A stretch of DNA of 64,000 bases from Arenibacter aquaticus (GTDB taxonomy: Bacteria > Bacteroidota > Bacteroidia > Flavobacteriales > Flavobacteriaceae): NCBI RefSeq assembly GCF_003957295.1, contig NZ_RQPJ01000002.1, forward strand, positions 682,001-746,000, in the 5' to 3' direction. The notes beneath the pieces were generated by a model. It was not told where the DNA came from and made no database searches. It saw only the letters and a program-made list of their open reading frames with translations. Below are positions 44,060-45,897 of the stretch, piece by piece. Made by a program: the position numbers and the translations under genes. How positions within the stretch are numbered: the first letter of the stretch is position 1; each line of letters opens with the position of its first letter.

Positions 44060-44668
44060 ATGGCTTTTGAATTACCAAAATTACCTTATGCGTATGACGC
44101 TTTGGAACCACATATTGATGCCAGAACAATGGAAATACACCATACCAAGCATCACAACGGGTACACTAACAATTTAAACAATGCTATAGCCGGAACGGAT
44201 TTGGAAAACAAATCAATATCCGATATACTTACCAATTTGGATATGTCCAACGGGGCCGTAAGAAATAATGGAGGTGGATTCTTTAACCATTCCCTATTCT
44301 GGGAAATCATGTCGCCCAACGGCGGTGGAACTCCTACTGGCGATTTGGCCGATGCCATCTCTGCTGCATTTGGATCATTTGAATCCTTTAAGGACGCCTT
44401 TTCCAAGGCTGCTGCAACAAGATTTGGTTCTGGATGGGCTTGGTTATGTGTGCACAAAGGAGGCAAATTGGAGATTTGCTCTACACCCAACCAGGATAAC
44501 CCAACCATGCCCGAAACTGGCTGTGGTGGATATCCAATTTTAGGTTTGGACGTGTGGGAACACGCCTATTACCTAAACTATCAGAATAGGAGACCAGACT
44601 ATATCAATGCATTTTTCAATGTAGTAAACTGGGATAAAGTAACCGAATTGTACGAGGCCAATAAATAA
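44060..44668 (+). CDS. sodA: superoxide dismutase, Mn-type residues
   Basis: A 202-residue Fe/Mn superoxide dismutase that converts superoxide to oxygen and peroxide. Metal ligands are His in [15 protein letters not shown], His in [15 protein letters not shown], and the Asp and His of [23 protein letters not shown]. At the two positions that separate Mn from Fe enzymes it has Gly before NHSLFW ([10 protein letters not shown], where FeSOD has Gln) and Gln in STPNQDNP (as in E. coli MnSOD). This points to Mn or cambialistic use. It has no signal peptide, so it is cytoplasmic. It has its own promoter and a strong terminator, so it is monocistronic. Confidence 0.95.
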
Positions 44669-45036: not shown

Positions 45037-45136
45037 TTTCCACGGCCACACTGTCCAGGCCGCTTTCACTTGGGTGAAATGCTCTTTGGACACCTGCCTG
45101 CCGGCGAGGCAGGGCTTCCTTTGTCCAATGTGGAAA
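45037..45136. repeat. multi-branched inverted-repeat element
   Basis: An outer stem TTTCCAC (45037-45043) / GTGGAAA (45130-45136) encloses two nested or adjacent hairpins. One has TGTCC (45052-45056) / GGACA (45088-45092) around TTTCAC (45064-45069) / GTGAAA (45074-45079). The other has CCTGCC (45093-45098) / GGCAGG (45108-45113). It could be a structured RNA or a miniature mobile repeat (REP/MITE-like). No flanking target duplication was recognised. Confidence 0.5.
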
Positions 45137-45507: not shown

Positions 45508-45585
45508 AAAATTGAAAAGGGTAGAGAAGTCTCTACCCTTTTCGTCCCAAATCTTACCATAAACTTAACCTACTTATGCTATGGC
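45508..45585 (-). ncRNA. predicted small RNA, copy 1 of a tandem pair
   Basis: About 75 nt on the minus strand. The predicted 5' end lies at CCATAGCATAAGTAGG, followed by TTAAGTTTATGG, TAAGATTTGGG and a terminator hairpin whose arms are AAAAGGGTAGAG (45515-45526) and CTCTACCCTTTT (45531-45542). The 39 bases 45546-45584 are identical to copy 2 except for one position. CCATA/TATGG can close a 5' hairpin. No plausible protein is encoded. The promoter is listed separately. Function unknown. Confidence 0.65.
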
Positions 45586-45589
45586 GCTA

Positions 45590-45619
45590 CTAAAATACTG
45601 GTATTGTGAGAAATAACAA
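45590..45619 (-). promoter_or_regulatory. promoter of predicted small RNA copy 1
   Basis: Minus-strand TTG (45617-45619), 19-base spacer, TATTTTAG (45590-45597; one mismatch to TAnnTTTG). The -7 box ends 5 bases before the conserved RNA body, exactly as in copy 2. Confidence 0.6.
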
Positions 45620-45702
45620 AAAGATTTATGAAATATTATCTGTCAATTTCTACACTATGATTGTTAACAAATCCATGTAACACACTTAAAATATTGATAT
45701 TC

Positions 45703-45780
45703 AGCAATAAAAAAGGCGAAGCCACGCTTCGCCTTTTTTCCCCAAATCTTACCATGAACTTAACCTACTTATGCTATGGT
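45703..45780 (-). ncRNA. predicted small RNA, copy 2 of a tandem pair
   Basis: Same organisation as copy 1, 195 bases away: CCATAGCATAAGTAGG, TTAAGTTCATGG, TAAGATTTGGG (conserved 45741-45779), then a terminator hairpin GGCGAAGC (45715-45722) / GCTTCGCC (45726-45733) flanked by A6 and T6. The hairpin sequence differs completely from copy 1 while its position and form are kept. This is what selection on an RNA with a terminator would leave. Confidence 0.68.
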
Positions 45781-45784
45781 CCTT

Positions 45785-45812
45785 CAAAAGTAAAGTAAAG
45801 CCGAGCTCACAA
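45785..45812 (-). promoter_or_regulatory. promoter of predicted small RNA copy 2
   Basis: Minus-strand TTG (45810-45812), 17-base spacer, perfect TACTTTTG (45785-45792). It ends 5 bases before the conserved RNA body. Confidence 0.68.
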
Positions 45813-45897
45813 AAAAGGTTTTAGACCAACTTCCCATTAATAGGTTGAAATACTTTACAGCTGTCATTACCCCTAATTCTTGTTCAATTTCCAATCC

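Follow-up and report, generated by a model that had tools for sequence, protein, structure and literature searches.

The window, by which we mean the whole stretch of 64,000 nucleotides from Arenibacter aquaticus that was analysed, carries on its minus strand two tandem copies of a putative small noncoding RNA (sRNA) gene, each with promoter-like and terminator-like signals of its own, and on its plus strand a superoxide dismutase (SOD) gene that faces them. The features of the locus are as follows, with the letters A and B denoting copy classes that are described below.

44060-44668, plus strand: Fe/Mn superoxide dismutase, the conserved neighbour facing the array, with Pfam Sod_Fe_N and Sod_Fe_C over their cut-offs
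45514-45543, minus strand: terminator hairpin of copy A, read from the sequence and from folding
45515-45586, minus strand: putative sRNA copy of class A, with a predicted 5' end near 45585, a 3' end in the T run 45518-45515 and the invariant body at 45584-45546
45590-45597, minus strand: the -7 box of copy A, TATTTTAG, separated from CCATAG by 5 bases
45596-45616, minus strand: class A promoter element TTATTTCTCACAATACCAGTA, which fills the spacer from the TTG (45617-45619) to the -7 box and is kept in 30 class A copies
45709-45739, minus strand: terminator hairpin of copy B, read from the sequence and from folding
45709-45781, minus strand: putative sRNA copy of class B, with a predicted 5' end near 45780, a 3' end in the T run 45714-45709 and the invariant body at 45779-45741
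45785-45792, minus strand: the -7 box of copy B, TACTTTTG, separated from CCATAG by 5 bases
45810-45812, minus strand: upstream TTG of copy B, separated from the box by 17 bases, an element not generally kept in other copies
45812-45829, minus strand: class B upstream element TTGGTCTAAAACCTTTTT, from comparison of copies of the class

By direct reading, the two copies share a 39-base body (45584-45546 and 45779-45741, minus strand) with a single difference, T or C in AAGTTyATGG, as the initial annotation of this DNA had claimed. Its description of the flanking signals was also accurate, in that the promoters TTG-N19-TATTTTAG and TTG-N17-TACTTTTG both end 5 bases before CCATAG, and the terminator stems (45543-45531 with 45526-45514, and 45739-45726 with 45722-45709) differ in sequence. 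Both 75-nt stretches folded better than 200 of 200 dinucleotide shuffles (z -5.07 and -4.68). The repeat is not a product of chance, because the genome holds two further copies, a reversed control pattern was unmatched, and 239 of 299 genomes of the family carry an almost identical sequence. In the spacer between SOD and the sRNAs, window positions 45090-45115 hold an inverted stretch rich in GC (CCTGCCTGCCGGCGAGGCAGG); a similar string is present in another locus (L378), so that the stretch could be a dispersed repeat.

A pattern search of the genome (5.23 Mb in 24 contigs) gave four copies, and the reversed control pattern gave no matches. The pair in the window is half of this complement. 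The further two copies, with 0 and 1 mismatch to the search pattern, are located on the same contig at a distance of 108 kb and point the other way (C5:619343-619381 and 619559-619597). The half of the array beside purF (C5:619343-619629, plus strand) consists of a C and a B copy, and the half next to SOD (window 45512-45779, minus strand) of a B and an A copy. Such an arrangement would fit an inversion that broke the array internally, each half keeping one ancestral neighbour. In four further genomes of the same genus (G744, G745, G747 and G749), seen as match positions only, two copy pairs likewise lie 43-57 kb apart in opposite orientation, and these positions suggest that the same array has been split there.

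The BLASTN and covariance-model searches that the initial annotation had proposed brought out a putative RNA that is widespread in the Flavobacteriaceae, with strong model matches inside that family only. BLASTN with one copy matched 239 of 299 Flavobacteriaceae genomes, this one included. Of the 30 family genomes listed from a sample of the order (n=196), 26, again with this genome among them, scored 61.9-102.1 bits with a covariance model built from 36 copies, and outside the family the model gave only weak matches of 27-40 bits in 13 genomes; the genomes listed are seemingly sorted by kinship, and 137 genomes of the sample are without a match and absent from the list. In a sample of the phylum (n=296) the same 26 genomes matched strongly and 15 others scored 28-35 bits. 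We take the weak matches outside the family (27-40 bits) as chance, and the four that were read (L215-L218) show no core. An exact scan of named genomes for a 25-base body string returned at least 120 stretches, and the names among the 120 listed include Maribacter, Zobellia, Arenibacter, Muricauda, Robiginitalea, Kordia and Lacinutrix, which we take to be Flavobacteriaceae; other bins are labelled by family, class or phylum only. Viral contigs held no exact match, and phage and plasmid records no BLAST match. Judged by comparison of sequences, the sRNA gene family is real, is present in most of the sampled Flavobacteriaceae genomes and is fixed in place.

The site of the array is between a purF-like gene, which scores below the cut-off of the purF model, and a convergent Fe/Mn SOD, followed by a RecB-like helicase and a glycine C-acetyltransferase. 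Among the 120 stretches listed, SOD is found in 99, purF in 104, both in 86 and at least one of them in 117; the three with neither (L148, L152 and L187) may simply stop short of the neighbour. The 29 loci found by BLASTN (L006-L034) all have SOD, and 25 of them purF, while all 21 loci found with the model (L194-L214), many of them with a diverged core, have purF and 17 have SOD. At these model-found loci the aligned SOD proteins are 71-81% identical to the one in this genome, and the PurF proteins 66-74%. We note that many purF-like genes, for example those in L077, L135 and L183, are closely preceded by a terminator-like hairpin (GCCCTGAAAATTTCGGGGC and a T run); the hairpin may terminate the upstream gene or serve as an attenuator.

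The Bacteroidota promoter consensus consists of a -33 TTG and a -7 box, TAnnTTTG. The comparison of promoters covered 422 distinct copies for which 75 upstream bases were available. A -7-like box, TAnnTT[TAC][GA], stands exactly 5 bases before CCAT in 357 of them, and the strict TAnnTTTG stands at that distance in 154. A terminator-like hairpin is present in 411 of the 422, a count to be read with the origin of the copies, as the 120 named stretches were picked by the 25-base body string alone and the other copies came from searches that included the terminator. Among the 357 boxed copies there are about 136 occurrences of a TTG at 17-23 bases above the box. The proposal that each copy has its own promoter and terminator therefore stands for the box and the terminator, and does not extend to the -33 TTG, which is not generally kept. 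A promoter directly upstream and an intrinsic terminator, kept across species, are among the marks of an independently transcribed sRNA gene, and both are found here.

The copies fall into three classes, A, B and C, which are unlike in their promoters and in the bases ahead of the terminator; the classes were set by our own motif rules, which were slightly altered between analyses, and L141 was sorted differently. Class A has a conserved spacer, TTATTTCYCACAATACCAGTA, above the -7 box (30 copies sorted by body and tail). Further up, TTTC strings tend to lie 10-11 bases apart, at -50, -40 and -29 in 37, 28 and 58 of 91 copies that were themselves selected by part of the TTATTTCYCACAATACCAGTA motif. 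Class B carries an element like TTYRTCYAAAACCTTTTT above the box, and class C a related element. The A element is matched twice in this genome, once exactly and once with 3 mismatches, the latter with no gene start close behind, and the B element (up to 2 mismatches) was found at the two B copies only, its reversed control giving 4 matches. Arrays hold from one to six copies, with a single copy in 42 and several in 78 of the 120 stretches listed. The order C-B-A is uncontradicted in 77 of these 78 multi-copy arrays, of which 52 are complete C-B(n)-A, the exception being a CBAA array. Within the 120 listed stretches the distance from B to A is fixed, at 181-207 in 66 pairs, while other distances in the array vary, that from C to B being 152-899 in 58 pairs. 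Many species keep a short palindrome-like CTGATwATCA (CTGAATATCA in this genome) in the stretch that separates the A promoter from the last B terminator (window 45585-45708).

The core that all classes share is nearly invariant and is predicted to fold into a 5' hairpin with a GUAGG loop, followed by a G-rich single-stranded linker. On folding, 35 of 36 distinct 5' parts formed a hairpin that joins ACCAU and AUGGU ends with GUAGG (once GUAGA) at its tip; the exception (TTATTGCACC..) is without a hairpin. Standard pairs fill 91.7% of pair cells versus at most 54.5% when the pairing is slid (31 of 33 distinct forms, with L087:6675 and L144 left out). Covariation of the hairpin was not above that of shuffles, as 2 pairs had changed on both sides and 146 of 500 shuffles were as high, and by covariation score 47 of 500 shuffles were as high. 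As such, the hairpin is well kept, but without proof by covariation. Invariant positions are more frequent in the loop and the 3' arm than in the 5' arm. The near-invariance of the 5' part supports its original designation as the functional region.

In complementarity tests on parts of five genomes we found no convincing mRNA target, and a limited set of targets would escape these tests as run. With up to 3 mismatches allowed, a 22-base antisense pattern matched the copies alone. Upstream of 1714 genes from parts of the five genomes, words complementary to the RNA were not outstanding, save promoter-like words and CCCAAA. The former, TTTTGC and neighbouring words, were raised with the start codon excluded and are read as promoter boxes; CCCAAA reached z 2.9 against z 3.0 in the coding control. 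General pairing with the start regions of 556 genes was rejected, the enrichment being mostly due to ATG itself, and 30 of 57 SusC-type gene start regions showed no consistent site by eye. The 57 matches to the SusC/RagA family model are in this genome (G000), and their number suggests a polysaccharide specialist. A pattern for the loop matched 48 listed places, 6 of them outside arrays; of the 3 that were read among these 6, two fall within one gene. The reversed control of the pattern matched more often.

A search for longer sites covered 21 genomes, 13 of them of the same genus. Among non-self sites complementary to the linker, 17 chosen stretches were read, and a dispersed extragenic repeat opens at the site in 13 of them and not in 4. 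In L378-L381 and L383-L391, all from this genus, the repeat opens with CCCCAAATCTTACCCAAGAACTTTGCGC; the complementarity between its first 14 bases and the sRNA linker is incidental, and a relaxed search found none of its core in the fetched part of the genome that holds the window. One of the sites, CCCCAAATATTACCC, is shared by 8 genomes of the genus, and in the two that were read it lies between genes. L392 (G000:C10:186054) and L394 (G212:C22:207399) contain ATTACCCCAAATATTACCCC, a direct repeat located between genes that would pair with the linker but for one mismatch, and this direct repeat may be an operator or a target site.

Taken together, it is probable that the two copies in the window belong to a vertically inherited family of noncoding RNAs of about 70-75 nt, in which one core is placed under different signals and acts in trans. 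Comparison supports the part of this reading that concerns the locus, the C-B-A array of 1-6 copies, the box and terminator of each copy, the near-invariant core and the class-specific upstream elements. Different signals would drive classes A, B and C towards the same RNA core, which would then act in trans. It would most likely pair with a limited number of mRNAs, and the pairing segments would be the GUAGG loop, which is exposed, the UAAGAUUUGGGG linker and, within the hairpin, the 3' arm. Base-pairing seems the most likely mode on general grounds, namely the exposed G-rich loop and linker and the overall anatomy of an sRNA. As no target was found, action in trans is something that we infer. 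The reading as a whole is favoured by the four copies, the 239 of 299 genomes, the fixed neighbours, order and spacing, the box, terminator and hairpin, the broken reading frame, and the rarity of the class elements elsewhere in the genome; it is weakened by covariation no higher than in shuffles, by a -33 TTG that is not generally kept and by the lack of a conserved target. A more specific proposal, which we put forward tentatively, is a family-wide hub RNA in which separate promoters feed one core that works without an RRM_1 protein, through a partner or targets not yet described in Bacteroidota.

The main rival to base-pairing is an RNA that titrates a protein. CsrB and RsmY RNAs sequester an RNA-binding protein, and the copies described here could jointly set the level of such a decoy, with the GUAGG loop and the UUUGGGG linker as the binding sites. 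A near-invariant loop and linker, several copies under different promoters and a target search that brought up no conserved mRNA complementarity all speak for a decoy. However, each RNA offers one loop and one linker and as such few binding sites, and there is no candidate protein, since the RRM_1 domain, the one RNA-binding family searched for, is absent from the genome; we regard titration as rather unlikely. Action mainly on the neighbouring SOD or purF-like gene would account for the retention of at least one neighbour in 117 of the 120 loci listed, and in this genome the start of purF ranks second of 556 genes for pairing. The TTACC-ATG site concerned is, however, present in only 2 of 68 purF leaders and absent from another Arenibacter (L141). 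SOD ranks 90 of 556 and pairs no better than its synonymous shuffles, 60% of which are at least as strong (mean z +0.31, 107 distinct genes). SOD is also convergent and therefore shares no leader with the array. Both genes were rejected as targets, and action mainly on the neighbours seems improbable.

Small peptide genes or a mere DNA repeat would be an even poorer account, and the least credible of those considered. Copies with CATGG do hold an ATG and a short frame, the only small frame present (ATGGTAAGATTTGGG..), but a 1-nt indel (GGTAAG versus GGTAG) shifts it in many copies, and the frame-shifting form, ATGGTAGATTTGGGG, is found in most copies of a large genus (g128). Moreover, the conserved region includes the hairpin, which precedes the ATG, and the frame contains the terminator. 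A conserved reading frame, which an sRNA gene should lack, is thus not seen, in agreement with the initial annotation, which had found no coding sense. A DNA repeat, for its part, has no need of a box at a fixed distance or of a terminator whose letters change. True homology with the FopS and GibS RNAs of Bacteroides is scarcely more plausible. FopS (Rfam RF04319) is, in the accessible part of its description, a multicopy RNA of about 70 nt with a conserved 5' part and its own promoters and terminators, and is thus like the present sRNA in each of these traits, including size and copy number habit (PMC11697453). GibS is a Bacteroides sRNA catalogued as RF04182 (PMC7366714, as far as the available part of that report goes). 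The FopS model aligns over its full length, with the string UUCAUGGUA..AGAUUU shared in its seed region, but the score is low, at 18.1 bits against a threshold of 56. None of the four copies is among the five genome-wide FopS matches (18.7-24 bits; 150 of 1055 candidates scored), and both models fell far below threshold in another genus. FopS and GibS copies are dispersed, in contrast to the single tandem array here, and unlike them the present sRNA has a 5' hairpin. FopS pairs with the start regions of susC-type mRNAs. Its RRM-1 partner, RbpB, has no counterpart here by an RRM_1 search of this genome, for which the control, Bacteroides ihuae, was positive.

Flavobacteriaceae are major degraders of algal polysaccharides, and some are fish pathogens. 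Because the locus is predictable in most sampled genomes of the family, a single probe and a single deletion design could be used in many laboratory strains. The near-invariance of the core implies strong selection, and the different promoter classes make it directly testable which signals the sRNA may integrate.

The kind of RNA is known, and this member of it appears to be new, being uncatalogued as far as we searched, with the Rfp RNAs mentioned below compared by description only. Against Rfam release 15, the window and 11 further copy-bearing loci gave a tRNA only and no sRNA match at threshold. Membership of Flavo-1, which had been suggested initially, was not borne out, as no Flavo-1 match was obtained in the Rfam searches of the window and further copy-bearing loci; Flavo-1, like this sRNA, occurs in Flavobacteriaceae, according to the part of the source at hand (PMC9723704). 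STnc40 (28.6 bits, threshold 45) and sraA (26.2 bits, threshold 56) owe most of their scores to the terminator stem, and both were rejected. The accessible part of a transcriptome study of F. psychrophilum, a member of the same family, reports 85 new RNAs (Rfp), some of them conserved in other species (PMC9723704), and one of these could be the sRNA described here. Rfp18, the only Flavobacteriaceae sRNA with a test of function that we found in the literature, is described in that part with a third stem-loop, versus two hairpins in the present sRNA (PMC9723704). A literature search that included pieces of sequence, with most subscription journals outside its scope, returned no paper that we recognised as describing this sRNA, and the available part of a Red Sea paper describes no such RNA (PMC5069720). 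In other phyla, sibling (multicopy) sRNAs likewise comprise several near-identical RNAs with promoters of their own. Unlike those siblings, the sRNAs of the Flavobacteriaceae have an order of promoter classes and a locus that are fixed across the whole family.
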